Assembly: GCA_963920635.1 (NCBI GenBank)
Contig: OY987302.1
Coordinates: 43,837,500 to 43,901,499, forward strand
DNA: 64,000 nt
Origin: Pseudeuparius sepicola
Taxonomy: Eukaryota; Arthropoda; Insecta; Coleoptera; Anthribidae
Direction of reading: 5' to 3'
The notes under the pieces are model-generated. The model had not been told where the DNA came from and searched no databases. It worked only from the letters and a program-made list of their open reading frames with translations. Of this stretch, positions 26,854-57,901 are shown in pieces (the stretch's first letter is position 1; every line of letters starts with the position of its first letter). The translations under genes were made by a program, and so were the position numbers.

Positions 26854-26863
26854 TACATATATG

Positions 26864-27716: not shown

Positions 27717-28316
27717 TACAGCGTGTTGAAATTTGTCCAAAAATAACATATTTTTTAAATTTCTCTCGAGCCCATTTAGGAATTCTAACCAAATTTGGTA
27801 CACATTATACACTGGACGGTTGCCATTTTGTGGAATAATTTGACCCCGTTCCGATCACCAGCGGCGTAGGTACAAATAGTTACTGTAAATAATTGTAGAA
27901 AAAGTAGTACGGCCCTGTGCAAAACCAAAAATTTTACCTTTTTTGGATAGCCCATTTAATTTGGAACAAAAAGTGCCTCTTGGCATTTTTTTATTTCTGG
28001 TACAGTTTCTTCGTAATTTCGGATTTTTTAAACTAGTGTCAAGGTGATTATGCTGGCATTTAAAATAAAATTATTTGTATCTACGCCGCTGCTCATCTGA
28101 ACAGGGCCAAATTATTGCACAAAATGACAACCCATAATATGTATAAAATAATTCCTAAACGGGCTAGAAAAAAATTAAAAAATATTTGGAAAAGTTTCAA
28201 CACTCTGTATATGGAGAACCAAGCGTTTTTGAGCTAATGTTTATTAAGCATATGTGCTTATTTTAGCGAATTCTACCTTGTGTTTTCGGCTCTGCCTTTA
28301 GATGTGACTCACCCTG
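27717..28316. mobile_element. Truncated second copy of the 26.86-kb MITE
   Basis: It begins at the inner word TACAGCGTGTTGAAA and ends with the outer terminus (GACTCACCCTG), so about 130 bp of the left arm is missing. The remaining text follows the first copy with moderate divergence. Confidence 0.75.
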
Positions 28317-29336: not shown

Positions 29337-29550
29337 AGTTACAGGAGCTAATATTGCCTAGAAAGCACGAGAGACTATTTTGCCGACTCAACACCAACCG
29401 AGGTTATATATTCTCGCGCTGGCCCGCCTTAAGTCAGTCTTGACATTTTTATTGTATCGTAATTATCTTACAACCCTTATAAATTTTGTTAGGTTTTATC
29501 CAATGAAATCTGTTTTTAAAAACGGGTTGTTTCGGCCACAGATCCTAACT
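29337..29550 (+). repeat. 5' LTR of Gypsy element
   Basis: 214 bp, starting AGTTACAGGAGC and ending CAGATCCTAACT. TATATA lies at 29405-29410. Compared with the 3' LTR it has three substitutions. One changes the expected poly(A) signal to AATGAA, where the 3' LTR reads AATAAA. Confidence 0.95.
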
Positions 29551-34695: not shown

Positions 34696-35532
34696 TTGAC
34701 ACAGGTACTTCATTACAGATGGACCCTCGCCATGGGCCAGGAAGTGAAAATAAAAGACCTGAAAGACAATCCAGGGATACTTCCCCTAAACCTGGGACAA
34801 GCAAGGATTCAAACTAGTACACACGATTTTATACATTATTATAACTTGACACCGATCGCCCAAGAGATCGACCACTTACAAAAACATTTCCAAGAACTTT
34901 CAAAATGTATGCCTACTCTAATTGGATACGGAAACGAAAACTTAAAAAACTTCAACAAAATTCTACAATATCAAATACAAGTAGTTCATCGAAAATTTGA
35001 AACAATTTACCCAATTCACAGAACCAAAAGAGGACTAATAAATGCCTTAGGCAGCATTATTAAAACGATATCTGGAAATTTAGACAACGCAGATGCTGAA
35101 CGCTATAACAAGGCAATTTCGACCTTACAGAAAAATCAAAAAAATGTTATTCGAGAAGTAAACCAACATATTTCCTTAACTAAAAAACTAATCAATAATT
35201 TTAATACTACGACAACAATGGTAAAACATAACCAAAATATCCTGGCAAAAGAAATAAACACGTTAAAAAATGAACTTCAACAGAATATTTATGAAACATC
35301 CCAGTACATAAGAATACACAGTATCATGGACCAGCTGAGTTTATCGCTACAGATTGTATTACATCTTTTAACTGACCTAGAAAACGCAATCACGTTTGCA
35401 AAGGTAAATACCCTACATAATAGTATAGTAAAAATAGATGAAATGGAAACCATAATCGAAACAATGTTAGAAAGTCATTTAAAAGAACAGCTGCTTTACG
35501 TCAAAGAACAAGATTTGACTGCATGTTATGAC
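34696..35532 (+). pseudogene. Gypsy env gene, 5' part (split by palindromic element)
   Basis: 279 codons of an insect errantivirus-type envelope protein up to the insertion point. A short basic R-T-K-R site near residue 109, followed by a hydrophobic glycine-rich stretch, resembles the cleavage and fusion region of this class. After it comes a long helical, coiled-coil-like region. In relatives env is translated from a spliced mRNA, so the first ATG here may not be the natural start. The frame runs straight into the inserted element and stops at 35566-35568. The 3' part lies at 51188-52048 in the matching frame; the gene is not functional in this copy. Confidence 0.85.
35527..35532. repeat. 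Target-site duplication of palindromic element, left (TATGAC)
   Basis: TATGAC lies directly before the AG start of the palindrome and again directly after its CT end (51182-51187). Six bases is the length made by Polinton/Maverick elements. Confidence 0.85.
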
Positions 35533-35557
35533 AGTAGTATAGCAAAGGGTACTCCAG

Positions 35558-36343
35558 GGCGGAAGTGACGTCACAAGATGGCCGCCAAGGCGGGAAATTT
35601 GAAAATGGCCTTGACCTGCGGGTTCAATGAACTTTAAGGGGTCACGTTCAGTTAACCTTGACCTGAAGGTTATCTAGAGGCCAAGGGGTTACCAGATCGA
35701 TAACCTTTAAGGGGTCATTGACCCGCGGGTTAACCTTGAAGGGGTCACGTTCAGTTAACCTTGACCTGAAGGTTATCTAGAGGTCAAGGGGTTACCAGAT
35801 CGATAACCTTTAAGGGATCATTGACCCGCGGGTTCAATGAACTTTAATAGGTCACCTTGTTACCTTGACCGGTCAATGAACTTTAAGAGGTTACCTTGAC
35901 ACGTGGCACTTGGGTTCTACCTTGAAAAATTGAACTTTGCTCACAGTTCTGGGAACGGAAGTGACGTCAATGGTCGCCAAGGCGGGAAATTTGAAAATGA
36001 CCTTGACCTGCGGGTTCAATGAACTTTAAGGGGTCACCTTGTTAACCTTGACCGGTCAATGAACTTTAAGAGGTCACCTTATTAACCTTGACCTGAAGGT
36101 CAATGAACTTTAAGAGGTCACCTTTTAACCTGAAGGTCAATGAACTTTAAGGGGTCACCTTGACACGTGGCACTTTTTCTGGGAACGGAAGTGACGTCAA
36201 TATGGCCACCAAGGCGGGAAATTTGAAAATAACCTTGACCTGCGGGTTCAATGAACTTTAAGGGGTCACGTTCCATTAACCTTGACCTGAAGCTAGAGGT
36301 CAAGTGGTTACCAGATCGATAACCTTTAAGGGGTCATTGACCC
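35558..36343. promoter_or_regulatory. Terminal array: ETS/CRE/E2F blocks and EcRE-like IR-1 sites (left)
   Basis: Three blocks carry GGAAGTGACGTCA then GGCGGGAAATTTGAAAAT (35561-35605, 35957-35999, 36187-36230). Between them are eight one-base-spaced inverted repeats of the type GGGTTCAATGAACTT or AGGTCAATGAACTT (35620, 35830, 35871, 36012, 36054, 36097, 36134, 36244). There are also three of the type GGGTCATTGACCC (35712, 35815 with one mismatch, 36331). The known ecdysone receptor consensus is RGKTCANTGAMCYY. CRE is TGACGTCA and the E2F site is TTTCCCGCC on the other strand. Whether any factor binds here is inference; the units may also be binding sites for the element's own replication proteins. 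The first gene begins 14 bp after the last site. Confidence 0.6.
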
Positions 36344-36356
36344 GCGATATTGAAAT

Positions 36357-36659
36357 ATGTCTTTTCTGAAACAGTTGAACGAAAATAACTTCGTAAAAGA
36401 AATTGTGAGTGCAAGAGAGTTAGTGGTTGGTGAAAAACATAAAATTTTATCTTTTAGAAGAATTGAAACAAGGTACGGGGAGAAAGTGTTCGTCGAATTT
36501 GAAAATTTTCAAACTGCGCTACCTGCACGGTTCGTAAAAGAATTTACGTCTGAACGCATCGAAGACATAAACCGGGAAATCACCAACGGAAAGAAGATCT
36601 TCTTGACGAGTCTGGGCCTCATTGGTAGGACAACGAATATTAAATTTGAGGAAGAATGA
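36357..36659 (+). CDS. Small OB-like protein of the palindromic element (left copy)
   Basis: 100 codons, intact and identical in the right arm (50055-50357). The sequence has a strand-rich middle (KHKILSFRR, then RYGEKVFVEFENF, then ALPARF) and ends with SLGLIGRTTNIKFEEE. I recall similar short proteins in many copies in insect genomes with a layout like a single OB-fold, which would suit single-stranded DNA binding. That is inference; no search was possible. The ATG is preceded by the terminal regulatory array, which probably holds its promoter. Its stop overlaps the ATG of the next small gene (ATGA). It is not known from core Polinton gene sets under this form. Confidence 0.6.
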   Translation: MSFLKQLNENNFVKEIVSARELVVGEKHKILSFRRIETRYGEKVFVEFENFQTALPARFVKEFTSERIEDINREITNGKKIFLTSLGLIGRTTNIKFEEE

Positions 36660-36766
36660 ATCCCACTGACAAGAGGCGACGCAGACAACACTACAAAAGA
36701 AGATTGGAATTTTATCTAAGATCTCTTCAAAATTTGAAATATGAAATTCAAATTGAAATAAATTAA
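36656..36766 (+). CDS. 36-residue very basic peptide, ATGA overlap (left copy)
   Basis: Starts at the ATG overlapping the previous stop codon and reads MNPTDKRRRRQHYKRR, then a short amphipathic tail ending IQIEIN. It is identical in the right arm (49948-50058). Arginine/lysine clusters suggest nucleic-acid binding or nuclear targeting. Adenovirus-like genomes and Polinton relatives often encode tiny basic core proteins, but I have no homology to claim. It could be chance, though the overlap and the charge pattern argue for coding. Confidence 0.45.
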   Translation: MNPTDKRRRRQHYKRRLEFYLRSLQNLKYEIQIEIN

Positions 36767-37399
36767 AAGTTCAAAAACATAAATTTAGAAAATTGTAAAA
36801 AATAAAATATGAAATCTAGTCTATCTTTTATTTACCCCTACAAAATTGAAACTCAAATCTGAATGTTCCGATTGCTTCTGAGCGCAGAACATATAAATAC
36901 GTCCAAGTGCATTTGACAGGATTCATTGACACTTGATAGACTATATTAATAACAATTTTGGGTGCGGTTACTTTAATTCCTAGTATATTTTTGGACATTT
37001 TCGTTCATTTTATTTACAAAATTATTCTTCCTTATTTTTTATAAGATTATAAGTTGGCTGAAGTAGCCGCATTAATGTTAAGAAATCTAAAAAACGTTGA
37101 AAAGTTATAAGTCTAAAGGAATAGCTCTGGATATTCTTATCTATTAATAAAAGTATTTCATTTTCTGACACGTCAGGTCAACAATCTACCGAACAGCGAA
37201 ATTATACGCTGATTTCTTGACGCAGCAGGTCAATAATCGACTCACATTGTAAACTGCAACATCAGCTAAATATATGCTAACGCCGCAGGTCAACAACCAT
37301 GCTATGTCATCAGATTGTTTTCTGCCGAATAGCATGAAATTTGAAACCGGAAATGAAACATGATACCACGGTGTCAGATTACAAAGGTGTCAAGGCAAA

Positions 37400-37580
37400 A
37401 ATTGCGTTACGGAGAAACAATTTTTAGTGGAAGAATTAGTAGAAGTACATCTGGAAATTAGCAGAGGACAAAAATTGCTTGGGTCTGAGAACAACAAATA
37501 TTGAATTTTGCGAAGAGGCTGCATCTTATAAGAAAAAGTTACAATCTGAACTAAGAATGTTGATAAATAAAATGTAGTCA
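37400..37580 (+). pseudogene. Relic second copy of the OB-like gene (left arm)
   Basis: In shifting frames this stretch reads RYGETIF and then LGLRTTNIEFCEE followed by a basic tail. These parallel RYGEKVF and LGLIGRTTNIKFEEE of the gene at 36357-36659. The spacing is shortened and stops intervene, so it looks like an old tandem duplicate, now dead. The mirrored copy is at 49134-49314. Confidence 0.4.
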
Positions 37581-38084
37581 TTGTCAAAAAATTCCACAGC
37601 CGTGTAGTATCCAACTTGACTCTCACTTCTCTACGGTATAGGTATGCACAGACGTGTTTCCGGGAACACATCTATACAGGGTGTCTCACAACTGTTGGAA
37701 ACAAATTTAACTAGAGATTCTTTGGCTAAAAATAAGACTTTTTCCCTATAAACATATGTTCTATCTACCTTCGTTTTTGGACATACAGGTTGAAAATTAA
37801 AAAAAAACGATTTTTTTAAAGTTTATTTCTAAACAAATTCTATCGCTTTGAAATTTGGTACGTATTAGCAGTTTAGTCACCATTGTGAACAGTATGAGCT
37901 CCAAACTTCCCTCAGTGGCGTAGATACGAGGTTTCAGCTTTTTCTTTAAAAATTGTGCTTAGATTACAACGAAATCTTTGTACAAGTAGAAAAAGCGACT
38001 CGAAGCGACTATGAAAAACGACTAGACTTCTCGAAAAGCGTCTAAACGACTCGAAAAGAGACTCGAAGCGACTCGAAAAGCGAC

Positions 38085-38204
38085 ATACCATGGAATACCA
38101 TCAAAGACCATGGAATACCATCGAATACCATGGAATACCATGGAATACCATCGAATACCATCAAAGACCATGGAATACTATCGAAAACCATGGAATACCA
38201 TAAA
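38085..38204. repeat. Decamer tandem array (left arm)
   Basis: About twelve 10-bp units of the type ATACCATGGA / ATACCATCGA / ATACCATCAA. They are preceded (37985-38084) by degenerate GCGACTCGAA repeats. The array is mirrored at 48510-48629 with the same unit order, so it existed before the palindrome formed. Confidence 0.85.
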
Positions 38205-38336
38205 TAGTCTTGGATACCCCTATGAAAAATTTGTCAAGGGGCAAGCATAAAAGGAAATCATTATCGACATCGTGATCGATGCCCTGTGATCGAGAGATAT
38301 ATAAGTCTTTTATAATACAATCACGCTCAGTTAGAC

Positions 38337-38873
38337 ATGTCTCTGTCACTTGAGATTGAACCTAGGAGTTATGGTATCCAACACACCAATGACGGATTAG
38401 TCATGGGACAAATACCAGTAACCGTTGAAGATAACGTATTATGTATTGGAGATGAAAAAATTACCCTTACACCAGGTCTGTCTCAACTTCTATTGAAGAA
38501 CAAACCACAAGGTTTTAATGACACTGACCTAAAAATATATAAGGAATTGTTGATCATTACTAATGCTCACAAAAGACGATATGGGAACGCATTACGACTA
38601 AACCCTAGCAAAACGTGGAAATATATCAACATTATATCAAAGTTATTTCCATCTAGAAATAAAGCTCCAACCAGCTTTTCACGAGAGTTGCATTTAATGG
38701 AGTCTCCAACAACTTCCAACATGCCAATACTTAAATGGGATAAAAATACCAATCCGAATGACATCGTTGATATGTATAGGAATGCTCTACAAAAGGGGGA
38801 AGAAACAGATATATATATCAACACCCTAGTAGCTATGAATGTTATTAGAGATCCAAGAAATAAAAATGTTTAA
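38337..38873 (+). CDS. DUF8207-like protein of the palindromic element (left copy)
   Basis: 178 codons, intact and identical in the right arm (47841-48377). The core reads KITLTPGLSQLLLKNKP, then DLKIYKELLIITNAHKRRYG, then KYINIISKLFPS. I recall this order (TPGL..LL, DL..YK..L..TNAH, KY..II..LFP) in a large family of uncharacterised insect proteins catalogued as DUF8207, which are typically multi-copy. The function is unknown; a link to Polinton or adintovirus-type elements is plausible but from memory. No transmembrane segment or signal peptide is seen. A tandem decamer array and AT-rich leader lie upstream. Confidence 0.6.
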   Translation: MSLSLEIEPRSYGIQHTNDGLVMGQIPVTVEDNVLCIGDEKITLTPGLSQLLLKNKPQGFNDTDLKIYKELLIITNAHKRRYGNALRLNPSKTWKYINIISKLFPSRNKAPTSFSRELHLMESPTTSNMPILKWDKNTNPNDIVDMYRNALQKGEETDIYINTLVAMNVIRDPRNKNV

Positions 38874-38909
38874 ATAAGTGTTTGTTTCTCTATACATACC
38901 TACTCTTGA

Positions 38910-41300
38910 ATCACATCAGATAACAAACTATGGATTTGTCCTAACTGTGATGATCTCAACAAGAAGTTTAACCTAAAACTAAATTCTAATCATCAACCAT
39001 TTTGTAAAGAGTGTCCAGTTCTTGTGAAGAAACTTGATAATGCAAGGAATAACCAATATCAATTAAGTACTATTACAAACAAAAATGGGGGTAGCATTTA
39101 TATTTTAAATTGTCAAGGATTAAGGAGTCATTTCAATGAAGTATCATTTTTTGTTGCAAAACATTTACCACGTATTCTATGTTTAATAGAGACTCATATT
39201 ACAAGTGAGGCTGAAGATTTTGAAATTAATTTAGATAATGTTACCATAATAATAAGACTAAATTCTAATAGTAATCAGACAGGGGGTGTTATTTTTTTAT
39301 GTTAGACATGATATCTATTTTAAAGTTTTTTTCAAACAATAAACTTATACAGTGTTTAGTTTTAACCAATCCAAATATTTCTGACCATAATATGCTTCAA
39401 ATTACTCTTGAAAATTATTCTTATTTTGATTCAATTTTTGTAGAAAAAAATGCTTGATGATAATTTAATGAAAACAGCATTAACTCAATTAAATCATAGT
39501 TATGACCCTCAAATGAATATTGAAATAATTAAGAGTACAAATTTCCAAGCTAATATTTGCAAATATTTGATACTTACATGCCAAAAGTTGAAATTAAAAT
39601 AAAACCTGGTCATCATTGGTTCAACGATAATAATCTTAAGGCAATTAAATATAGGGAAGACTATTACAAGTTATATCACTTTAGAGAAACTTATGTTGTA
39701 TGTAATATTTATGAGGTGACAGAAATTTCAATAGCTTTTATATTAAGAGCATCTATGAAATTGCATCCAAAATTCCTGTAGGTAACTAAAAAGAGTTTTG
39801 ATTTTGATTTTGAAAAAATATATTTTTGGAATTAATTTGAAAAACTAAGTCTAGCTAAAATTAGGGAAATAGTTTTTAATTTACCAAATAAGACAAGTCC
39901 TGACGAAATCGACATAAGTTTTATAAAGAAATATTTTAATGAAATTGGGAAAATGTTATTAGATCAAATCAATGATTCTTTAGAGTTAGGTATTGTCTCA
40001 AAAAAATTTAAAAATATCAACTATTATACCTGTGAGAAAAATAAATAATTCTAACCGAGCTGAAGATTTTAGACCCATTAATATGTTAGTTGCAATTGAA
40101 CAAATTTTAGAGTGTATTGTACATGAACAGTTGACAGAATATATTGAGAAAAATAATATTTTATCAAAATTTCAGTCGGGATTCCGAAAAAAAAAACATG
40201 ATACAATATGTAATAAATTAATGGAAAATGACCACAGATGAAAATAAGATTGTAGGTATTGTTTATTTGGATTTAAAAAGAGCATTTGAAACTGTTGATC
40301 GGTCTAAATTATTAAAGAAATTAGAAAAATATGGTTTAGGCGGAGTAGTTCTTAATTGGTTTCGAAATTATTTATATGATAGAAAACAAATAGTAAAGTG
40401 TCTAAATTTCAAGTCAAATGAATCATTTGTAGAAATTGGTGTACCACAAGGGAGTGTACTAGATCCCTTATTATTTGTTTTATTTTTAAATGACTTGACA
40501 TATATTTTTCAAAATTGTAAATATCATTTTTTTGCAGATGACACACTTATTTATTTTTATAGTGAAAATTACAGAAATTTAGAGTTAAAGTTAAATAGCG
40601 AGTTATTAAGTGTATATAATTGGATGTGCGCTAATAAATTACAAATAAATATAGCAAAAACAAAATTTATGATATTAGGTTCACCAAAACTTTGTAAATT
40701 ATTTGTAGAAGAAAAACTATTTTTTTTATTAATAATTGTGCCATTGAAAGAGTGAATGAATATAAATATTTGAGTGTAATCGTAAGTTCAGATTTAAAAT
40801 TTAAGGAGCATGTAAATTATATATGTAAGAAGATTTCAAGAAAAATTTGTGTGCTAGGTAGAGTGAGTGACAATTTAAATATGTTTGGAAGAATAACTGT
40901 CTATAATACTATTATAATTCCTCTTTTCACTTTTTGTAGCTCAGTTCTATATATGACTTCACAAAATGATAAGCACCGATTACAAGTATTACAGATTACA
41001 GAACATAGCTATGAGAATAATTTTAAAATGTAATATGTTTACTAGTATTATAGACATGTTAATTAAGTTAGGTTGGATGAATGTTGAAAATTATTTAAAG
41101 TTTATGAGCTTAATATTTATCCACAAAATTATCTTAAATGTATGTCCACATTATTATAAAAACTACATGACAAAATTTGAGCATGTTCATAACTATGACA
41201 CAAGAAAAAAGAGAACTTTTTGTTAGATCACAAGTATTTTATATTGTCCCAAAATTCGATTTTTTTCAAGGTTTATTGGAGTATAATAACATTGGTAGTG
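38910..41300 (+). pseudogene. Non-LTR retrotransposon (CR1/Jockey-like), left arm copy
   Basis: Open pieces in several frames follow LINE order. A Cys-rich start (CPNC...CKEC) is followed by an APE-type endonuclease N-terminus (YILNCQGLRSHFNEV, LIETHI). A 30-bp deletion near 39333 removes sequence before the ISDH motif. The reverse transcriptase includes PINMLVAIEQILE, YLDLKRAFETVD and IGVPQGSVLDPLLFVLFLND, with the catalytic FADD near 40537, and a thumb segment follows. Frameshifts at about 39305, 39990, 40235 and 40750 and a stop at 41034 kill it, and the same breaks occur in the right arm. It inserted into the parent element before the palindrome formed. Confidence 0.85.
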
Positions 41301-42234
41301 AAATAAGGAACATAAAATATATAAATAAGTGATAAGCTTAAGAAATGATATGTTGTTAAAAATCAAATTTTATAAAGGAGAAAATGCAAAAATTCCATAT
41401 CGCACATTGGTGATGATCGTGTGAGATCAAAATGCAACTATGCAAGATTGCAAGAATATAACACCGGATCTAAATCGATCGAGGTAAAAAATCTATGCTG
41501 CAATTTCTTAGGTCGTCACTCTGATGCGTCAGCTAGATTGAAAAATGCGACTCGACAAAAAAATCGGAAGTAAAATCGAAATATGAGAAAATGGCGCACA
41601 TAAGAATCAAATTTTTGAAATCTTAACGTGATTGTACCACGGCATGACAGTACGATACCAATCATTTTTATTTACGTTCAACTAGCATCTTAAAACCACT
41701 TAACTGAAAGTTCTGCAAAGTTTAACTTTCGAGTAGGTGGCTGTGAATTCATATTTGACATTGTATTGAGATTCCAAACAACTTTTCTTAGTGTCATTCT
41801 GCTGTAGTTCTAAAAATAAGGGTACTTTACTCTTGAGGAATTTTCATATTTTTCAACCTTCCCTGTATACGAATAGAAATTTCAAAATTTTTATGGATGG
41901 GTTTTGAGTTTAAGCACAAGCAACAACTTTTATCAAGAATAATTTTTTTAGGAAACTTCAACTAAAGAAAAATCCCATTTGTGTTCAACTTTCTGGCAGA
42001 CACTGTATGTTAAAAATTATGATGTCAAAGTAATCTTTAAAATATACACAACGTTTTTCAGTATTTCATCAATACTCTTCATTCCGTCGTACACTCTCTT
42101 ACCTGGCACTGAAACTTATGGAAATTAACATTAAGAAGTTCCAGATAATCATATATACCAAAAATCTATATAACAGGTTTGAAAATGGTTGCAAAGTTCA
42201 AAATCTCGTTGCAAAAATCATCCCACAGATGTTA

Positions 42235-42522
42235 TCAATGACGTCGGAACCTATAGACAGGTTTGTTTTGATAAACGCTTGACGCCCAGAACTGATCACA
42301 ATCTAAGCGCTCCATTAAATTATTCCGAAAGTGTCGCGAGATTGTCAGAAATTGCCCCTTTTTGTCGAGCCGTAGAGAACTTATTTCGACTCTGGGCTCG
42401 GAGGCTGGCGTCGTTAGATCATCCCCCGAGTCTTCAGGTGAGGTTCCGATGCTTCCGGCGTCCCAAAACAAGAAAAAACATGCGATATCTAAGTGTGATT
42501 CTGGAGGAACTATAACCGGGAA
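42235..42522 (-). other. Unrecognised open frame near palindrome centre (left copy)
   Basis: About 95 codons open between stops, without an internal ATG start: acidic and serine-rich (SPEDSGDDLTTPASEPRVE) then GQFLTISRHFRNNLMERLD. It is identical in the right arm at 44450-44737 on the other strand. The composition is less AT-biased than the surroundings, which suggests former coding. I do not recognise the family. Confidence 0.3.
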
Positions 42523-43358
42523 TCACCGGGTGTATAGTTGGTTGATGGTTGACTTTCTGTCTTTGTTTGTAGCATGTTTTTAGAGTAGTATGGATATATT
42601 TAATCTTGGAGTCAAAATAAAGGGCATTTTAACAATGGGGCACCACGTCTATAGGTTTTGACGTCGTTGGATGTTATAAATAAATGGAAACGTAACTTTC
42701 TGGAATGTAGAACTTAATATTTTTATTGGAACGTAGTTTGGTGACAGGCTACTTCAACACCACTGATCTGTCAAATTTGACGGCAGTATAAAAATTCTCG
42801 TAGGTAATATTCTTGTCATATATAGCTTGTTAAGTTGTGAGTCCTCCATGCCAAGATACTTATATGAATAAAAAGGAATGAACTGTTGTAAGCATGTCAA
42901 CAGAATTACTACATTTAAATGAATGTTTCCTTAAAGGAGCATATAAAAGCAGCTAGTGTAGTTTTTAATCGTTTATTTAACCCAAGCAACAATGAACTGC
43001 AGTTCGTAGATGTTTATTTTAGAAGTGTACTTTTAATTTCTTAATATTTTTGTAAACCATTGTCGTTCAGTAGTCTCTGAATAATTCTAATATTCAATTT
43101 CACAATCAATAATGAAGAACATTTTGTTATATAGTAGATCATAGATTTTTAATGGTGAACTATTCCGTGTCAGAAAACGGACGATTTTTAAGTATCATTC
43201 TAATTTTATAGCATGCAAAACTTCTGAATAAATTTAGCATCGGGTACATGGGCGAAAGGAATCCATTTTATACAACACAAATTGTAAATTCTATTACATA
43301 GATGTAATTTACACAAATAAGCAACTGATTATTTCGGAGATATTCGAATGAACTTTTT

Positions 43359-43613
43359 GAAGTAATTCCATGGCATAATTCACCCACCTTTAAAATTCCT
43401 CTTTTGCTTAAATTTGGCACCTTGTAGAATGTAACTCCCGGTATATTTTTGACTAAAATTTGGTATATTGGATGTTCCGATTAACACCGTGATGTCAGAT
43501 TTTAAATAAAAAATTCGCTAAATGGTTTGAATGCGAGAACGAGGATATAAAAATCCCTGGATTGGCATTTTCAAAACGGTAGCAAAAAGAAGCGGTTTTA
43601 TAAGACCTTTAAA
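43359..43613. other. Central spacer of giant palindrome
   Basis: The only unpaired part of the element, 255 bp. It holds no open frame of note and no similarity to the arms. It is too short to hold any Polinton core gene. Confidence 0.8.
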
Positions 43614-44449
43614 AAAAAGTTCATTCGAATATCTCCGAAATAATCAGTTGCTTATTTGTGTAAATTACATCTATGTAATAGAATTTACAATTTGTGTTGT
43701 ATAAAATGGATTCCTTTCGCCCATGTACCCGATGCTAAATTTATTCAGAAGTTTTGCATGCTATAAAATTAGAATGATACTTAAAAATCGTCCGTTTTCT
43801 GACACGGAATAGTTCACCATTAAAAATCTATGATCTACTATATAACAAAATGTTCTTCATTATTGATTGTGAAATTGAATATTAGAATTATTCAGAGACT
43901 ACTGAACGACAATGGTTTACAAAAATATTAAGAAATTAAAAGTACACTTCTAAAATAAACATCTACGAACTGCAGTTCATTGTTGCTTGGGTTAAATAAA
44001 CGATTAAAAACTACACTAGCTGCTTTTATATGCTCCTTTAAGGAAACATTCATTTAAATGTAGTAATTCTGTTGACATGCTTACAACAGTTCCTTCCTTT
44101 TTATTCATATAAGTATCTTGGCATGGAGGACTCACAACTTAACAAGCTATATATGACAAGAATATTACCTACGAGAATTTTTATACTGCCGTCAAATTTG
44201 ACAGATCAGTGGTGTTGAAGTAGCCTGTCACCAAACTACGTTCCAATAAAAATATTAAGTTCTACATTCCAGAAAGTTACGTTTCCATTTATTTATAACA
44301 TCCAACGACGTCAAAACCTATAGACGTGGTGCCCCATTGTTAAAATGCCCTTTATTTTGACTCCAAGATTAAATATATCCATACTACTCTAAAAACATGC
44401 TACAAACAAAGACAGAAAGTCAACCATCAACCAACTATACACCCGGTGA

Positions 44450-44737
44450 TTCCCGGTTATAGTTCCTCCAGAATCACACTTAGATATCGCATGTTTTTTC
44501 TTGTTTTGGGACGCCGGAAGCATCGGAACCTCACCTGAAGACTCGGGGGATGATCTAACGACGCCAGCCTCCGAGCCCAGAGTCGAAATAAGTTCTCTAC
44601 GGCTCGACAAAAAGGGGCAATTTCTGACAATCTCGCGACACTTTCGGAATAATTTAATGGAGCGCTTAGATTGTGATCAGTTCTGGGCGTCAAGCGTTTA
44701 TCAAAACAAACCTGTCTATAGGTTCCGACGTCATTGA
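44450..44737 (+). other. Unrecognised open frame near palindrome centre (right copy)
   Basis: Inverted copy of 42235-42522, same peptide. Confidence 0.3.
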
Positions 44738-45383
44738 TAACATCTGTGGGATGATTTTTGCAACGAGATTTTGAACTTTGCAACCATTTTCAAACATTTT
44801 GAAATTTCTATTCGTATACAGGGAAGGTTGAAAAATATGAAAATTCCTCAAGAGTAAAGTACCCTTATTTTTAGAACTACAGCAGAATGACACTAAGAAA
44901 AGTTGTTTGGAATCTCAATACAATGTCAAATATGAATTCACAGCCACCTACTCGAAAGTTAAACTTTGCAGAACTTTCAGTTAAGTGGTTTTAAGATGCT
45001 AGTTGAACGTAAATAAAAATGATTGGTATCGTACTGTCATGCCGTGGTACAATCACGTTAAGATTTCAAAAATTTGATTCTTATGTGCGCCATTTTCTCA
45101 TATTTCGATTTTACTTCCGATTTTTTTGTCGAGTCGCATTTTTCAATCTAGCTGACGCATCAGAGTGACGACCTAAGAAATTGCAGCATAGATTTTTTAC
45201 CTCGATCGATTTAGATCCGGTGTTATATTCTTGCAATCTTGCATAGTTGCATTTTGATCTCACACGATCATCACCAATGTGCGATATGGAATTTTTGCAT
45301 TTTCTCCTTTATAAAATTTGATTTTTAACAACATATCATTTCTTAAGCTTATCACTTATTTATATATTTTATGTTCCTTATTT

Positions 45384-47804
45384 CACTACCAATGTTATTA
45401 TACTCCAATAAACCTTGAAAAAAATCGAATTTTGGGACAATTTAAAATACTTGTGATCTAACAAAAAGTTCTCTTTTTTCTTGTGTCATAGTTATGAACA
45501 TGCTCAAATTTTGTCATGTAGTTTTTATAATAATGTGGACATACATTTAAGATAATTTTGTGGATAAATATTAAGCTCATAAACTTTAAATAATTTTCAA
45601 CATTCATCCAACCTAACTTAATTAACATGTCTATAATACTAGTAAACATATTACATTTTAAAATTATTCTCATAGCTATGTTCTGTAATCTGTAATACTT
45701 GTAATCGGTGCTTATCATTTTGTGAAGTCATATATAGAACTGAGCTACAAAAAGTGAAAAGAGGAATTATAATAGTATTATAGACAGTTATTCTTCCAAA
45801 CATATTTAAATTGTCACTCACTCTACCTAGCACACAAATTTTCCTTGAAATCTTCTTACATATATAATTTACATGCTCCTTAAATTTTAAATCTGAACTT
45901 ACGATTACACTCAAATATTTATATTCATTCACTCTTTCAATGGCACAATTATTAATAAAAAAAATAGTTTTTCTTCTACAAATAATTTACAAAGTTTTGG
46001 TGAACCTAATATCATAAATTTTGTTTTTGCTATATTTATTTGTAATTTATTAGCGCACATCCAATTATATACACTTAATAACTCGCTATTTAACTTTAAC
46101 TCTAAATTTCTGTAATTTTCACTATAAAAATAAATAAGTGTGTCATCTGCAAAAAAATGATATTTACAATTTTGAAAAATATATGTCAAGTCATTTAAAA
46201 ATAAAACAAATAATAAGGGATCTAGTACACTCCCTTGTGGTACACCAATTTCTACAAATGATTCATTTGACTTGAAATTTAGACACTTTACTATTTGTTT
46301 TCTATCATATAAATAATTTCGAAACCAATTAAGAACTACTCCGCCTAAACCATATTTTTCTAATTTCTTTAATAATTTAGACCGATCAACAGTTTCAAAT
46401 GCTCTTTTTAAATCCAAATAAACAATACCTACAATCTTATTTTCATCTGTGGTCATTTTCCATTAATTTATTACATATTGTATCATGTTTTTTTTTTCGG
46501 AATCCCGACTGAAATTTTGATAAAATATTATTTTTCTCAATATATTCTGTCAACTGTTCATGTACAATACACTCTAAAATTTGTTCAATTGCAACTAACA
46601 TATTAATGGGTCTAAAATCTTCAGCTCGGTTAGAATTATTTATTTTTCTCACAGGTATAATAGTTGATATTTTTAAATTTTTTTGAGACAATACCTAACT
46701 CTAAAGAATCATTGATTTGATCTAATAACATTTTCCCAATTTCATTAAAATATTTCTTTATAAAACTTATGTCGATTTCGTCAGGACTTGTCTTATTTGG
46801 TAAATTAAAAACTATTTCCCTAATTTTAGCTAGACTTAGTTTTTCAAATTAATTCCAAAAATATATTTTTTCAAAATCAAAATCAAAACTCTTTTTAGTT
46901 ACCTACAGGAATTTTGGATGCAATTTCATAGATGCTCTTAATATAAAAGCTATTGAAATTTCTGTCACCTCATAAATATTACATACAACATAAGTTTCTC
47001 TAAAGTGATATAACTTGTAATAGTCTTCCCTATATTTAATTGCCTTAAGATTATTATCGTTGAACCAATGATGACCAGGTTTTATTTTAATTTCAACTTT
47101 TGGCATGTAAGTATCAAATATTTGCAAATATTAGCTTGGAAATTTGTACTCTTAATTATTTCAATATTCATTTGAGGGTCATAACTATGATTTAATTGAG
47201 TTAATGCTGTTTTCATTAAATTATCATCAAGCATTTTTTTCTACAAAAATTGAATCAAAATAAGAATAATTTTCAAGAGTAATTTGAAGCATATTATGGT
47301 CAGAAATATTTGGATTGGTTAAAACTAAACACTGTATAAGTTTATTGTTTGAAATTACCAAATCAATTAAAGTTTTTCCACTCCAAAACTTTAAAATAGA
47401 TATCATGTCTAACATAAAAAAATAACACCCCCTGTCTGATTACTATTAGAATTTAGTCTTATTATTATGGTAACATTATCTAAATTAATTTCAAAATCTT
47501 CAGCCTCACTTGTAATATGAGTCTCTATTAAACATAGAATACGTGGTAAATGTTTTGCAACAAAAAATGATACTTCATTGAAATGACTCCTTAATCCTTG
47601 ACAATTTAAAATATAAATGCTACCCCCATTTTTGTTTGTAATAGTACTTAATTGATATTGGTTATTCCTTGCATTATCAAGTTTCTTCACAAGAACTGGA
47701 CACTCTTTACAAAATGGTTGATGATTAGAATTTAGTTTTAGGTTAAACTTCTTGTTGAGATCATCACAGTTAGGACAAATCCATAGTTTGTTATCTGATG
47801 TGAT
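45384..47804 (-). pseudogene. Non-LTR retrotransposon (CR1/Jockey-like), right arm copy
   Basis: Same element as in the left arm, inverted. Here the 30 bp missing on the left are present, so the frame 47227-47415 keeps the endonuclease text TLIDLVISNNK and PNISDHNMLQ with the catalytic SDH motif. All other frame breaks are shared with the left copy. This arm therefore preserves the ancestral state at that point. Confidence 0.85.
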
Positions 47805-47840
47805 TCAAGAGTAGGTATGTATAGAGAAACAAACACTTAT

Positions 47841-48377
47841 TTAAACATTTTTATTTCTTGGATCTCTAATAACATTCATAGCTACTAGGGTGTTGATATA
47901 TATATCTGTTTCTTCCCCCTTTTGTAGAGCATTCCTATACATATCAACGATGTCATTCGGATTGGTATTTTTATCCCATTTAAGTATTGGCATGTTGGAA
48001 GTTGTTGGAGACTCCATTAAATGCAACTCTCGTGAAAAGCTGGTTGGAGCTTTATTTCTAGATGGAAATAACTTTGATATAATGTTGATATATTTCCACG
48101 TTTTGCTAGGGTTTAGTCGTAATGCGTTCCCATATCGTCTTTTGTGAGCATTAGTAATGATCAACAATTCCTTATATATTTTTAGGTCAGTGTCATTAAA
48201 ACCTTGTGGTTTGTTCTTCAATAGAAGTTGAGACAGACCTGGTGTAAGGGTAATTTTTTCATCTCCAATACATAATACGTTATCTTCAACGGTTACTGGT
48301 ATTTGTCCCATGACTAATCCGTCATTGGTGTGTTGGATACCATAACTCCTAGGTTCAATCTCAAGTGACAGAGACAT
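47841..48377 (-). CDS. DUF8207-like protein of the palindromic element (right copy)
   Basis: Exact inverted copy of 38337-38873, with the same 178 codons. Both copies point inward from the element ends, and both are intact after the element moved. Confidence 0.6.
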   Translation of the reverse strand: MSLSLEIEPRSYGIQHTNDGLVMGQIPVTVEDNVLCIGDEKITLTPGLSQLLLKNKPQGFNDTDLKIYKELLIITNAHKRRYGNALRLNPSKTWKYINIISKLFPSRNKAPTSFSRELHLMESPTTSNMPILKWDKNTNPNDIVDMYRNALQKGEETDIYINTLVAMNVIRDPRNKNV

Positions 48378-48509
48378 GTCTAACTGAGCGTGATTGTATT
48401 ATAAAAGACTTATATATCTCTCGATCACAGGGCATCGATCACGATGTCGATAATGATTTCCTTTTATGCTTGCCCCTTGACAAATTTTTCATAGGGGTAT
48501 CCAAGACTA

Positions 48510-48629
48510 TTTATGGTATTCCATGGTTTTCGATAGTATTCCATGGTCTTTGATGGTATTCGATGGTATTCCATGGTATTCCATGGTATTCGATGGTATT
48601 CCATGGTCTTTGATGGTATTCCATGGTAT
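48510..48629. repeat. Decamer tandem array (right arm)
   Basis: Mirror of 38085-38204. Confidence 0.85.
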
Positions 48630-49133
48630 GTCGCTTTTCGAGTCGCTTCGAGTCTCTTTTCGAGTCGTTTAGACGCTTTTCGAGAAGTCTAGTCGTTTTT
48701 CATAGTCGCTTCGAGTCGCTTCTTCTACTTGTACAAAGATTTCGTTGTAATCTAAGCACAATTTTTAAAGAAAAAGCTGAAACCTCGTATCTACGCCACT
48801 GAGGGAAGTTTGGAGCTCATACTGTTCACAATGGTGACTAAACTGCTAATACGTACCAAATTTCAAAGCGATAGAATTTGTTTAGAAATAAACTTTAAAA
48901 AAATCGTTTTTTTTTAATTTTCAACCTGTATGTCCAAAAACGAAGGTAGATAGAACATATGTTTATAGGGAAAAAGTCTTATTTTTAGCCAAAGAATCTC
49001 TAGTTAAATTTGTTTCCAACAGTTGTGAGACACCCTGTATAGATGTGCTCCCGGAAACACGTCTGTGCATACCTATACCGTAGAGAAGTGAGAGTCAAGT
49101 TGGATACTACACGGCTGTGGAATTTTTTGACAA

Positions 49134-49314
49134 TGATTACATTTTATTTATCAACATTCTTAGTTCAGATTGTAACTTTTTCTTATAAGATGCAGCCTCT
49201 TCGCAAAATTCAATATTTGTTGTTCTCAGACCCAAGCAATTTTTGTCCTCTGCTAATTTCCAGATGTACTTCTACTAATTCTTCCACTAAAAATTGTTTC
49301 TCCGTAACGCAATT
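49134..49314 (-). pseudogene. Relic second copy of the OB-like gene (right arm)
   Basis: Mirror of 37400-37580. It contains one of the few arm differences (an A/G change near 49137, left 37573-37577). Confidence 0.4.
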
Positions 49315-49947
49315 TTTGCCTTGACACCTTTGTAATCTGACACCGTGGTATCATGTTTCATTTCCGGTTTCAAATTTCATGCTATTCGGCAGAAAACAAT
49401 CTGATGACATAGCATGGTTGTTGACCTGCGGCGTTAGCATATATTTAGCTGATGTTGCAGTTTACAATGTGAGTCGATTATTGACCTGCTGCGTCAAGAA
49501 ATCAGCGTATAATTTCGCTGTTCGGTAGATTGTTGACCTGACGTGTCAGAAAATGAAATACTTTTATTAATAGATAAGAATATCCAGAGCTATTCCTTTA
49601 GACTTATAACTTTTCAACGTTTTTTAGATTTCTTAACATTAATGCGGCTACTTCAGCCAACTTATAATCTTATAAAAAATAAGGAAGAATAATTTTGTAA
49701 ATAAAATGAACGAAAATGTCCAAAAATATACTAGGAATTAAAGTAACCGCACCCAAAATTGTTATTAATATAGTCTATCAAGTGTCAATGAATCCTGTCA
49801 AATGCACTTGGACGTATTTATATGTTCTGCGCTCAGAAGCAATCGGAACATTCAGATTTGAGTTTCAATTTTGTAGGGGTAAATAAAAGATAGACTAGAT
49901 TTCATATTTTATTTTTTACAATTTTCTAAATTTATGTTTTTGAACTT

Positions 49948-50058
49948 TTAATTTATTTCAATTTGAATTTCATATTTCAAATTTTGAAGAGATCTTAGAT
50001 AAAATTCCAATCTTCTTTTGTAGTGTTGTCTGCGTCGCCTCTTGTCAGTGGGATTCAT
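49948..50058 (-). CDS. 36-residue very basic peptide (right copy)
   Basis: Exact inverted copy of 36656-36766, with the same ATGA overlap with the OB-like gene. Confidence 0.45.
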   Translation of the reverse strand: MNPTDKRRRRQHYKRRLEFYLRSLQNLKYEIQIEIN

Positions 50059-50357
50059 TCTTCCTCAAATTTAATATTCGTTGTCCTACCAATGAGGCCC
50101 AGACTCGTCAAGAAGATCTTCTTTCCGTTGGTGATTTCCCGGTTTATGTCTTCGATGCGTTCAGACGTAAATTCTTTTACGAACCGTGCAGGTAGCGCAG
50201 TTTGAAAATTTTCAAATTCGACGAACACTTTCTCCCCGTACCTTGTTTCAATTCTTCTAAAAGATAAAATTTTATGTTTTTCACCAACCACTAACTCTCT
50301 TGCACTCACAATTTCTTTTACGAAGTTATTTTCGTTCAACTGTTTCAGAAAAGACAT
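50055..50357 (-). CDS. Small OB-like protein of the palindromic element (right copy)
   Basis: Exact inverted copy of 36357-36659. Transcription would run inward from the right terminal array. Confidence 0.6.
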   Translation of the reverse strand: MSFLKQLNENNFVKEIVSARELVVGEKHKILSFRRIETRYGEKVFVEFENFQTALPARFVKEFTSERIEDINREITNGKKIFLTSLGLIGRTTNIKFEEE

Positions 50358-50370
50358 ATTTCAATATCGC

Positions 50371-51156
50371 GGGTCAATGACCCCTTAAAGGTTATCGATC
50401 TGGTAACCACTTGACCTCTAGCTTCAGGTCAAGGTTAATGGAACGTGACCCCTTAAAGTTCATTGAACCCGCAGGTCAAGGTTATTTTCAAATTTCCCGC
50501 CTTGGTGGCCATATTGACGTCACTTCCGTTCCCAGAAAAAGTGCCACGTGTCAAGGTGACCCCTTAAAGTTCATTGACCTTCAGGTTAAAAGGTGACCTC
50601 TTAAAGTTCATTGACCTTCAGGTCAAGGTTAATAAGGTGACCTCTTAAAGTTCATTGACCGGTCAAGGTTAACAAGGTGACCCCTTAAAGTTCATTGAAC
50701 CCGCAGGTCAAGGTCATTTTCAAATTTCCCGCCTTGGCGACCATTGACGTCACTTCCGTTCCCAGAACTGTGAGCAAAGTTCAATTTTTCAAGGTAGAAC
50801 CCAAGTGCCACGTGTCAAGGTAACCTCTTAAAGTTCATTGACCGGTCAAGGTAACAAGGTGACCTATTAAAGTTCATTGAACCCGCGGGTCAATGATCCC
50901 TTAAAGGTTATCGATCTGGTAACCCCTTGACCTCTAGATAACCTTCAGGTCAAGGTTAACTGAACGTGACCCCTTCAAGGTTAACCCGCGGGTCAATGAC
51001 CCCTTAAAGGTTATCGATCTGGTAACCCCTTGGCCTCTAGATAACCTTCAGGTCAAGGTTAACTGAACGTGACCCCTTAAAGTTCATTGAACCCGCAGGT
51101 CAAGGCCATTTTCAAATTTCCCGCCTTGGCGGCCATCTTGTGACGTCACTTCCGCC
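50371..51156. promoter_or_regulatory. Terminal array: ETS/CRE/E2F blocks and EcRE-like IR-1 sites (right)
   Basis: Mirror of 35558-36343 with the same three CRE/E2F-type blocks and eleven IR-1 sites. I saw no differences from the left end in the parts I compared. Confidence 0.6.
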
Positions 51157-51181
51157 CTGGAGTACCCTTTGCTATACTACT

Positions 51182-51187
51182 TATGAC
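51182..51187. repeat. Target-site duplication of palindromic element, right (TATGAC)
   Basis: Second copy of the 6-bp duplication; env sequence resumes here. Confidence 0.85.
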
Positions 51188-52048
51188 GTCATATCAGTAG
51201 ACGCCTACTACTCGAACCAGATGATAGTCTTTATTCTGCACTTTCCTCTCCTACACCCTCAAGTTTTTACACATTATCATCTCTATTCAATCCCCACTAG
51301 TAATTTTACCACAATTATTCCACCTTTGCCTTATCTGACCATGAATACTGCACTTTACCAATACTCAAATGTACCATGTCGAAAAATTCAATCAATTTAT
51401 TTATGCCCTACTCGATCTTTACAACTCCACGACAACTCGGACGATTGCATCGTAGAAATATTTCGCCTCACCGATCGAGAAGCCCGTTGCCACTACATTC
51501 CAGTTGTTGCGAACAGCACCCTTATTGAAGAATTAACAAAATCAAGTTATATTGGAATTTTCCCGAAGCCAACCAAAGTCTATCTACAGTGTACGACTTC
51601 AAGCATCGCAGACCTTCACGGTACCTACCTCATCGAGTTACCCCTAGGCTGCAACTTCAAAACTCCGACAGAGAACTTCATCAACTCCGATGACTCATCC
51701 AAAGAACAACCCTTGCTGTTACCGAAAATCAAGACAACCCAAATTAATCGGAAAGAAATCAGAAGGCCGATTAAATTGGATAAAATACCTTTAGACGAGT
51801 TGCATAAAATTCAACAAGAAGAACAACTCCAATCATTAGTCTACGAAGACGCCATCGACTACACCCATTTTTGGACCACACCGCTGTACTTACTTGTGAC
51901 AGTGATTTTCGCATTTGTCTGCTACAAATGCCTGCACCGACTTAGACTCAAGAAGCACCAGGAAGAAGAAGCCAAAAATAAAGTTTTGTTCGTCCCTTAC
52001 AAAACTTCTTCAGAGGATGGAGAAGTTACAGGAGCTAATATTGCCTAG
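51188..52048 (+). pseudogene. Gypsy env gene, 3' part
   Basis: 286 codons after the insertion, in the frame that matches the 5' part. It carries several cysteines and, about 60 residues before the end, a hydrophobic membrane-spanning stretch (LYLLVTVIFAFVCY) followed by a basic cytoplasmic tail. The frame ends inside the 3' LTR (stop at 52046-52048), a typical errantivirus arrangement. The open ATG at 51140 lies within the palindrome and is not the natural start. Confidence 0.85.
52012..52023 (+). other. Polypurine tract
   Basis: AGAGGATGGAGA lies directly before the 3' LTR, the expected plus-strand primer. Confidence 0.75.
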
Positions 52049-52237
52049 AAAGCACGAGAGACTATTTTGCCGACTCAACACCAACCGAGGTTATATATTC
52101 TCGCGCTGGCCCGCCTTAAGTCAGTCTTGACATTTTTATTGTATCGTAATTATCTTACAACCCTTATAAATTTTTTTAGGTTTTATCGAATAAAATCTGT
52201 TTTTAAAAACGGGTTGTTTCGGCCACAGATCCTAACT
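52024..52237 (+). repeat. 3' LTR of Gypsy element
   Basis: 214 bp; AGTTACAGGAGC to CAGATCCTAACT. Carries AATAAA near 52189. Three substitutions against the 5' LTR. Confidence 0.95.
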
Positions 52238-55366: not shown

Positions 55367-55630
55367 TTAATAAGTGTCTGATATTTCAGAGAACGATTCC
55401 TCAGGTATTTTTTAAGATAAAAAGTTCATAAAACCATGGTTCCGCAAGGCCTTCATTTTTGGCATACAGGGTGTTAAAGATTCACCTGTAGGTAGGGCCC
55501 TCTACAATAATTATTAAAGGCCACACTAAGATCAAATCTGAGTTATGTTATAAAAACCCAATGTTTATATGAACTTTTTATCTTAAAAATACATGAGGAA
55601 TCGTCCTCTGAAATATCGGACATTTATTAA
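55367..55630. mobile_element. Small imperfect palindrome, 264 bp
   Basis: TTAATAAGTGTCTGATATTT at the left is matched by the inverted copy ending CATTTATTAA. Arms are about 63 bp. The centre contains ACAGGGTGTTAAAGATTC. The next MITE sits at its right-hand TTAA. Confidence 0.6.
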
Positions 55631-55974
55631 TAGGGGGTTGCTGACAGCGAAAGTGACGTTAGATTTCGTATTTTTTTAAGTTGTATAGCATAAAATCTAA
55701 TAACATTTTTTTTACCTGGCAAAAATTTAGTACAAACATCCCTGTCTTCATTTTAATCATAAGATCTTACAAGCAATGTTTTGTTTTAGAGGATATGAAG
55801 ACCTTGGGAAAAATAATAATTCCAGTGCATATATGCTTTTAAGATCTTATGATTAAAATGAAGACAGAGATGGTTGTACTAAATTTTTGCCAAGTAAAAT
55901 GTTAATAGATTTTATGCTATACAACTTAAAAAAATAAGAAATCTAACGTCACTTTCGCTGTCGGCAACCCTCTC
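55631..55974. mobile_element. TTAA-flanked palindromic MITE, piggyBac-like
   Basis: TTAA lies on both sides (55627-55630, 55975-55978). The inverted arms begin GGGTTGCTGACAGCGAAAGT and extend to near the centre at about 55803. The outermost bases are mismatched between ends. TTAA duplication is the piggyBac hallmark, but no transposase-type sequence is present. Confidence 0.6.
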
Positions 55975-56005
55975 TTAAGTACAAAGTTATTTTGTTTCCT
56001 ACTTA

Positions 56006-56450: not shown

Positions 56451-57028
56451 CCGCATAGCAGCGTATTTGTTTTAGTCAAATATGGCACGGCACGGTGTCA
56501 TCGAGGGTGTAATGGCAGCGTTAAAATAAACTGCAGCTAATTCCTGCAGTATCGTAATTTTTTTAACACATCAATCTCAAGATGCAGTGCAGATGTAATC
56601 TCTTGACGTGGCTGACCTTTTATGTTTCGAAATCTTCTCCGACAATAGTGAATTTATTGTATATAGGCGGATGATTGAACCCATCAATCCTGATCAAGAA
56701 TCAAAACGAGAAACTTGAACTAAAATCGTGAGATTGGCGTTTGTGCTTCGCCGAGACCTCACCATATTTCATTGTTTGGGTTTTTTATCTCCACACTAGA
56801 TCTGATCAGCGGTTCTATCCGGCAAGAAAAAAATCTTACGAGAAATACTCTCGTTATTTTTTCGTTGATGGACTTCGGTGTGCGAGAAAAGATATTCCAT
56901 ATCATATATACAACGTGTCCATTTACTATTCCCTTCTTCGATTGTGGCTATACTTTTAAGGATAAAAAAAATCGGTTCGGAGGATCCAAATAAGGGAAGA
57001 TGGAGCACATTTTAAAATTAGTTTGGTA
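56451..57028. other. No recognisable gene
   Basis: Short overlapping frames only. The end (CGATTGTGGCTATACTTTTA near 56939) is matched inverted at about 57914-57935, just beyond the two MITEs listed next. Confidence 0.4.
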
Positions 57029-57030
57029 TA

Positions 57031-57249
57031 CAGGGTGATTCACGTAAGTGGTTCATTAGAAGTTTACGGGGAAGGAGTGCGAATTTTGATTTGAAATTTT
57101 AGTTACTTATATAAGAGGTTGTAAACTTTCTTTCTAAAATATTTTCAACAATCATTTACAACTTGTTATATAAGTAACCAAAATTTCAAATTAAAATTCG
57201 CACTCCTTCCCCGTAAACTTCTAATGAACCACTTACGTGAATCACACTG
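57031..57249. mobile_element. 219-bp palindromic MITE, TA-flanked
   Basis: CAGGGTGATTCACGTAAGTG at the left and the inverted copy ending CACACTG at the right; arms of about 100 bp. TA on both sides. Confidence 0.85.
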
Positions 57250-57253
57250 TATA

Positions 57254-57899
57254 CAGGGAGTTCCAAAAAAGTGTGGCGACAAATTTTTTTTTTAAATGGA
57301 ATGACCCGATTTTTTATCGCAAATGAAGCCTATCAAAGTATAGTATACATACCTAAATTATTTCCGCTTTCATCTGCGACGTTGCCAAGTTATAATTTTT
57401 TTAAAGTATTTTTTGCTAAATAGGTACCAACCCTTCATTAATATTGCTATATTTTTCTTGGGGCTTGATTTTTTCTCTTGAAACTTTGGTTGTGGATTTA
57501 CACTTAACCATTTTATTAATGACTAAGAACCAAGTTGAAAATTTTTGTACAGGATGTTTCACTTTTTCGAAGTTTTGGCGGAAAAAGTGAAATATCCTGT
57601 ACAATTTTAAACTTGGTTCTTAGTCATTAATAAAATGAAAATGGTTAAGTGTCAATCCACAACCAAAGTTTCAAGAGAAAAAATCTAGCCGCAAGAAAGA
57701 AAAATATAGCAATATTAATGAAGGTATTTAGCAAAAAATACTTTAAAAATTTATAACTTGGCAACGCCGCAGATGGAAGCGGAAATAATTTAGGGATGTA
57801 TACTATAATTTGATAGGCTTCATTTGCGATAAAAAAATCGGGTCATTCCATTTAAAAAAAAATATTTTTTTTGTCGCCACACTTTTTTGGAACACCCTG
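57254..57899. mobile_element. 646-bp palindromic MITE, TA-flanked
   Basis: CAGGGAGTTCCAAAAAAGTG at the left and the inverted copy ending GGAACACCCTG at the right; arms of about 300 bp meet near 57575. It lies only four bases (TATA) from the previous MITE, so one inserted into the TA flank of the other. The minus frame at 57416-57604 is a palindrome by-product. Confidence 0.85.
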
Positions 57900-57901
57900 T
57901 A

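Follow-up and report, generated by a model that had tools for sequence, protein, structure and literature searches.

A probable 15.6-kb foldback element with Maverick-type ends inside a Gypsy env gene of the beetle Pseudeuparius sepicola

Introduction

What kind of event leaves a 15.6-kb palindrome in the middle of a retrotransposon env gene? The question is raised by a stretch of 64,000 bp from the anthribid beetle Pseudeuparius sepicola (assembly GCA_963920635.1, contig OY987302.1, positions 43,837,500 to 43,901,499 of the forward strand). We refer to this whole stretch as the window, and all coordinates below are those of the window. An annotation made from the sequence alone (the original prediction) had read the palindrome as a single mobile unit with Polinton-like ends. 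Our analysis favors, with a probability of about 0.55, a non-autonomous foldback element: a fold-back copy of one end of a longer element that was inserted by an integrase acting in trans. We class the palindrome as a foldback with ends of the Maverick type and not as a Maverick, because its integration features are those of Polinton/Maverick elements while its gene content and the length of its terminal repeats are not.

The palindrome and its insertion borders

Positions 35533-51181 form a near-perfect palindrome with a total length of 15,649 bp, as determined by self-BLAST and by realignment of the arms with MAFFT. The palindrome and its insertion borders are real, and nothing about them is marginal. 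The parts are as follows:

35533-43358, plus strand: left arm, 7,826 bp, starts AGTAGT (self-BLAST, MAFFT)
43359-43613, no strand: unique spacer, 255 bp; its right edge belongs to an A tract adjoining the arm end
43614-51181, minus strand: right arm, 7,568 bp, ends ACTACT at 51176 (self-BLAST, MAFFT)
41889-42176, plus strand: 288 bp present in the left arm only, the counterpart missing from the right arm
47355-47384, minus strand: 30 bp present in the right arm only, missing from the left arm at 39329/39330
35527-35532, plus strand: left target-site duplication TATGAC, exact 6 bp
51182-51187, plus strand: right target-site duplication TATGAC, exact 6 bp
29337-52237, plus strand: host Gypsy/errantivirus element, its env (Baculo_F-type) interrupted by the palindrome

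Self-BLAST pairs the arms in three inverted blocks, 35533-39329 with 51181-47385 (99.92% identity), 39330-41892 with 47354-44792 (99.88%) and 42177-43358 with 44795-43614 (99.92%), and counts seven mismatches, the seventh of which sits at the edge of an indel. In the MAFFT alignment there are six mismatches in 7,538 columns (left-arm positions 37577, 37666, 37992, 40841, 41242 and 42879) and two indels between the arms. Over the outermost 2 kb, the spread of the six mismatches shows no gap that is significant (probability 0.15). Because the frame across 47355-47384 runs longer in the right arm, the 30-bp difference is likely a deletion from the left arm; the 288-bp difference is likely a deletion from the right arm, since no clear duplication is seen around 41889-42176.

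The identity between the arms ends exactly at TATGAC on both sides, and a 6-bp match at this point is expected from base composition with a probability of about 4e-4. The left flank matches profile positions 44-276 of the Pfam family Baculo_F (25.4 bits) and the right flank positions 290-503 (39.6 bits), two separate parts of the profile; the cut-off is 24.1 bits. The insert plus one duplication measures 15,655 bp and, by arithmetic, the right env frame is in phase with the left. The original prediction had thus placed the palindrome exactly, and the arms of 7.8 and 7.6 kb, the 255-bp spacer and the TATGAC duplication within a Gypsy env gene that it described are all found as claimed. Its AG...CT ends also stand, although AGTAGT...ACTACT describes them more exactly.

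Palindromes and hairpin reads are a known source of trouble for assemblers, and the very high identity of the arms is what would be seen if the assembly had put the reverse complement of the first half of an asymmetric element in place of its second half. Such a hairpin, however, would return into the left flank, whereas the duplication on the right is followed by the remaining half of env in the matching frame. Moreover, the arms differ by the six substitutions and by the 30- and 288-bp indels, and they are joined by a unique spacer. We consider an assembly artefact improbable.

The host Gypsy element is flanked by a 4-bp duplication of its own, CGTT, and its long terminal repeats (LTRs; 29337-29550 and 52024-52237) differ at 3 of 214 sites. 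Its frames comprise reverse transcriptase (RT)-RNaseH, pieces of an integrase and a weak gag match (21.2 bits, under the cut-off of 24.1). For the RT frame, 6,169 of 7,947 scored candidates are relatives at E ≤1e-10; among the best 120 of the 6,169, three are named, from Trichoplusia ni TED virus, Manduca sexta and Diaphorina citri. The pol region is itself damaged, by a stop and by changes of frame, so this copy was not a pristine provirus. No Rfam family reached its gathering score within 29337-52237, and no transfer RNA was found in the window.

Terminal motif and target duplication

In a survey of vertebrate Mavericks, (AG)3//(CT)3 or (AGT)2//(ACT)2 ends together with perfect 6-bp duplications serve as a recognition mark (PMC8097293). 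The termini of the palindrome, AGTAGT...ACTACT, are the (AGT)2//(ACT)2 motif, and they are found here with a 6-bp duplication; an AGTAGT or AGAGAG end is expected by chance, from base composition, at about 5e-4. Polintons and IS3EU/GingerRoot both make 6-bp duplications and Ginger1/2 make duplications of 4-5 bp, and the ends of IS3EU/GingerRoot are TA..TA, occasionally TG..CA (PMC10045372). Among the superfamilies compared in the available part of that source, only the Polinton/Maverick signature fits, because the 6-bp duplication and the end motif both match. The likeness extends to total length, which lies within the range of 12,723-24,620 bp given for intact vertebrate Mavericks (PMC8097293); three Drosophila-associated adintoviruses come close to it, with 13.3-14.6 kb (PMC8363768). 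As judged from these sequence features, integration of the Polinton/Maverick type is the best reading but unproven.

Ends of this kind could also have come about in two other ways. First, the palindrome could be a foldback of another superfamily whose transposase duplicates 6 bp, with the Maverick-like end a coincidence. That no Polinton gene is recognized in the palindrome (see below) would agree with this, as would the 6-bp duplications of IS3EU/GingerRoot. The TA..TA or TG..CA ends of the latter do not match, however, and Ginger1 and Ginger2 combine their shorter duplications with TGT ends. Tetris, a foldback assigned to Mutator by its authors, duplicates 8-10 bp (PMC4079207), and the 6 bp of the palindrome do not fit that Mutator type either; the coincidence of a six-base motif would itself be rare at the frequency given above. 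This explanation is rather unlikely. Second, the unit could have been mobilized by an integrase of the host Gypsy's type: the LTR ends of the host, AGTTAC...TAACT, resemble those of the palindrome. The host duplicated 4 bp (CGTT), whereas the palindrome duplicated 6 bp, and we give this possibility almost no weight.

The outermost 0.8 kb of the palindrome consists of tandem repeats with a G+C content of 46%, compared with 34-35% in the flanks:

35533-36350, plus strand: left subterminal repeats, GGCGGGAAATTTGAAAAT and TGACGTCA, three times each
50364-51181, minus strand: right subterminal repeats, the mirror copy (coordinates by arm arithmetic)

The 8-mer TGACGTCA occurs 11 times in the window, including three times in each subterminal repeat. 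We also observed that the env insertion site at 51182-51193 reads TATGACGTCATA, a perfect 12-bp palindrome that holds this 8-mer. The presence of TGACGTCA both at the target and in the subterminal repeats is possibly a target preference or possibly a coincidence, in this one case.

Gene content of the arms

The left arm and spacer contain 38 stop-to-stop open reading frames (ORFs) that are 55 codons or longer, and all of these were scanned against Pfam at a limit of E 0.1 (E 1 for eight of them). The only family above its cut-off was RVT_1, which belongs to a retrotransposon passenger described below; the few other matches fell below cut-off and none was of a Polinton type. Two small ORFs lie outside the passenger:

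36357-36659, plus strand: ORF1, 100 amino acids, orphan; mirror at 50055-50357 on the minus strand (by arithmetic)
38337-38873, plus strand: ORF2, 178 amino acids, orphan
47841-48377, minus strand: mirror copy of ORF2
38085-38201 and 48513-48629: minisatellite between ORF1 and ORF2, one per arm, unit ATACCATGGA (10 to 20 bp)

In Markov shuffles of the 2.5-kb segment, an ORF of at least 177 codons arose in 1 of 500 and one of at least 99 codons in 76 of 500. By this comparison, ORF2 is probably a real gene or gene remnant, while ORF1 may be a chance frame. Both were searched as proteins lacking the first methionine. Among 5.8 billion proteins, ORF2 had 51 candidates sharing words, none of them a relative at E ≤0.001, and ORF1 had two candidates, none at E 0.1; across its searches as a whole, ORF1 had only weak matches below cut-off. 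Neither ORF matched PHROGs, and NCBIfam gave nothing above cut-off. Single-sequence structure models were poor (mean predicted local distance difference test scores of 39.5 for ORF2 and 57.0 for ORF1).

Three candidate assignments were discarded. A suspected similarity of ORF2 to DUF8207, an arthropod family without known function, was not supported: there was no Pfam match of that name at a limit of E 10, at which the HMMER filters drop most weak matches, and the term occurs in no paper of the open-licence literature searched. A match of ORF2 to a bacterial pilin in the PDB (whole-chain E 4e-5) was set aside as the sum of two near-identical domains with E 1.3 each. The strand-helix order of ORF1 looked OB-like by eye, and no Foldseek match was found at E 0.001 in the PDB or among viral models, so we make no claim for it. 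In the inner arm, 42183-42583 holds overlapping open frames of 95-110 codons; three of these have no Pfam match to E 1, and two of the three no PHROG match to E 0.1.

Several results weigh against a Polinton/Maverick origin. No Pfam family for a protein-primed polymerase B, a retroviral-type integrase, a capsid, a protease or an ATPase is found among the 38 ORFs, although remnants below 55 codons, or genes outside the reach of Pfam, would escape such a scan. Intact vertebrate Mavericks have seven or eight conserved genes and terminal repeats of 46-1,447 bp (PMC8097293); here, about 5.4 kb of arm with two small ORFs remain once the passenger is subtracted, and the terminal repeats of 7.6-7.8 kb take up all but 255 bp of the element. 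The available portion of the same survey documents the end motif for vertebrate Mavericks and not for insect ones. In viral contigs, 19-mers from the end and from the subterminal repeat each had 0 matches, ORF1 had 36 stretches that matched its pattern and 0 that were confirmed by tblastn, and no stretch matched the pattern of ORF2. Finally, no second copy of the palindrome lies within the window; this is the single known copy, and no autonomous partner is known. Separately, the subterminal 19-mer had six matches in prokaryote contigs, which we take as chance.

The Polinton-type reading of the original prediction thus stands in part: there is one clean insertion with a 6-bp duplication and the Maverick end motif, and there is no recognized Polinton gene. 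Its claim of movement in trans follows if the unit moved at all, because the frames that were scanned gave no match to a recombinase family.

A decayed retrotransposon shared by both arms

Each arm carries the same decayed passenger:

38881-41331, plus strand: decayed non-LTR retrotransposon in the left arm, RVT_1
45353-47833, minus strand: the same passenger in the right arm (coordinates by arm arithmetic)
38871-38880 and 41322-41331: candidate passenger target duplication TAAATAAGTG, 10 bp (chance of such a repeat 0.13, from comparable stretch pairs)

The frame at 40222-40752 matches RVT_1 with 77.8 bits against a cut-off of 29.6 (E 1.2e-21), and a weak match to exonuclease III (E 0.014) falls under cut-off. 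The reading frame of the passenger seems to shift about eight times. Nine of the ten passenger frames listed for the left arm are common to both arms, and the tenth is cut in the right arm by a stop that results from the substitution at 41242. Because the frame damage is common to both arms, decay of the passenger would have preceded duplication of the arm, unless conversion between the arms or sequencing indels account for the pattern.

The passenger has nine disablements in 2.3 kb, compared with five in 3.7 kb of the Gypsy pol (p = 0.056); with two doubtful changes treated differently, the comparison becomes eight versus five (p = 0.094) or nine versus four (p = 0.041). These disablements were counted from lists of frames and not by comparison with an intact relative, and some of them may be due to sequencing indels, so that the numbers are only suggestive of a passenger older than the Gypsy insertion.

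Divergence is lower between the arms (6 of 7,538 sites) than between the two host LTRs (3 of 214 sites; Fisher p = 0.0015). Thus, either the palindrome formed late or its arms were homogenized by conversion. The parent of the palindrome, because the arms hold a decayed retrotransposon, would have been resident for a long time; it was probably an old occupant of the chromosome and not a fresh viral genome, with the palindrome as a late product.

Origin of the palindrome

The junction at the spacer suggests how one end could have been copied twice. The left arm closes with ...GAACTTTTT, and AAAAAGTTC... opens the right arm after the spacer sequence CTTTAAA; at the spacer edge, TTTTT faces an A tract. 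If a strand had copied arm and spacer as far as the A tract, its end could have annealed to the T tract of the same strand and primed synthesis back over the arm; this would leave two identical ends and a loop of 255 bp, as observed. From this one junction, a snap-back origin at the A/T tract is plausible.

The history that we favor would run in four steps. (i) A longer parent with AGTAGT-type ends would have been resident long enough to gain a non-LTR retrotransposon, which decayed. (ii) While one end was being copied, the growing strand would have folded back at the A/T tract and used its own arm as template; the product would have had the same end on both sides, a pair of long arms and a loop of 255 bp. 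(iii) An integrase provided in trans, whose likeliest source is an autonomous Polinton-like element at another site, would have inserted the unit by its two identical AGTAGT ends at a staggered cut of 6 bp within the Gypsy env. (iv) The arms would afterwards have gained six substitutions and two deletions. The palindrome, its ends, the duplication, the nesting in env and the decayed passenger of both arms are observed; we infer steps (ii) and (iii) and the order of events.

A palindrome could also have formed without ever moving as one. In this scenario, a normal element with short terminal inverted repeats inserted into env and later suffered a break; strand invasion between its two repeats then led to copying of 7 kb from the opposite arm. 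The terminal repeats would supply the homology needed. Foldback elements give this idea precedent: Galileo of Drosophila mojavensis recruits internal sequence into its repeats, and its copies with the longest repeats have no transposase ORF (PMC3573991), while elongation of terminal inverted repeats after loss of the transposase has been proposed as the origin of foldbacks (PMC4079207). However, the longest Galileo repeats in the accessible text of that study are 1,260 bp (PMC3573991), whereas the palindrome is all repeat but for 255 bp, and extension in place demands a second event after a recent insertion. We think it unlikely on balance, although the distribution of mismatches in the outer 2 kb does not argue against it. 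The snap-back origin claimed in the original prediction is accordingly plausible from the A/T tract at the spacer edge, although this does not distinguish it from extension of terminal repeats in place.

Comparison with other known systems

As a foldback, the palindrome resembles Tetris and Galileo, in which a pair of long inverted repeats with internal repetition likewise makes up most of the element, the middle is short and a transposase is lacking (PMC4079207, PMC3573991). It differs from Galileo in the length of its arms (7.6-7.8 kb versus a maximum of 1.26 kb in D. mojavensis) and in its 6-bp duplication (7 bp in Galileo), and from Tetris in the duplication (8-10 bp). Mu killer of maize is a partial inverted duplication of a transposon with two copies of the terminal repeat region (PMC3440606); it is a proposed hairpin-RNA silencer of its parent, whereas the palindrome is known from DNA alone, has whole arms and made its own target duplication.

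Integrated invertron plasmids of fungal mitochondria (pAL2-1 type) are protein-primed linear elements with terminal inverted repeats. There, the flanking mitochondrial DNA forms the long inverted repeats; here, the element itself does so and the flanks are not inverted. For the snap-back step, palindromic defective genomes of adenovirus would be a nearer comparison than those of adeno-associated virus. The snapback genomes of the latter are likewise self-complementary, derived from one end and either symmetric or asymmetric (PMC8235507), although adeno-associated virus is a parvovirus and not protein-primed, so that the likeness is one of mechanism only. Among the matches listed in the open-licence literature, which mostly lacks subscription papers and is thus weak evidence of absence, we found no Maverick foldback.

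Smaller palindromic repeats in the window

Foldback-like repeats of other kinds are abundant in the window. Smaller self-palindromic repeats with 83-95% arm identity lie at 12072-12991, 16737-18037, 25949-26860, 26884-28308, 55627-55978, 57026-57254 and 57250-57903, and some of them start TACAGGG or TATACAGGG. No target duplication was established for these smaller repeats.

Discussion

The significance of the palindrome rests on one copy: the object is solid and odd, and its family is unproven. The reading that we favor is a fold-back copy of one end, inserted in trans. In a further-reaching version, the palindrome would be what an insect virus of the Polinton type left behind on integration, a defective snap-back genome in which one end was copied against itself to about unit length; such a genome would have been able to replicate from two identical origins and to integrate through the enzymes of a helper, and would hence have been an interfering parasite of that helper. 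We regard this version as doubtful.

We know of no report of replication intermediates of Mavericks. Mavericks are thought to be integrated viruses, and the available text of the vertebrate survey states that particles have not been observed (PMC8097293). If the favored reading is true, a snap-back form fixed in the genome would be physical evidence of Maverick copying. It would also mean that an integrase of the Maverick type can use a unit whose two ends are the same, and that the Maverick type joins the superfamilies that gave rise to foldback elements. By analogy with the proposal for Mu killer, two inward-facing copies could give a hairpin RNA that silences the parent; if transcribed, the palindrome would be a ready source of double-stranded RNA against the element from which it came.

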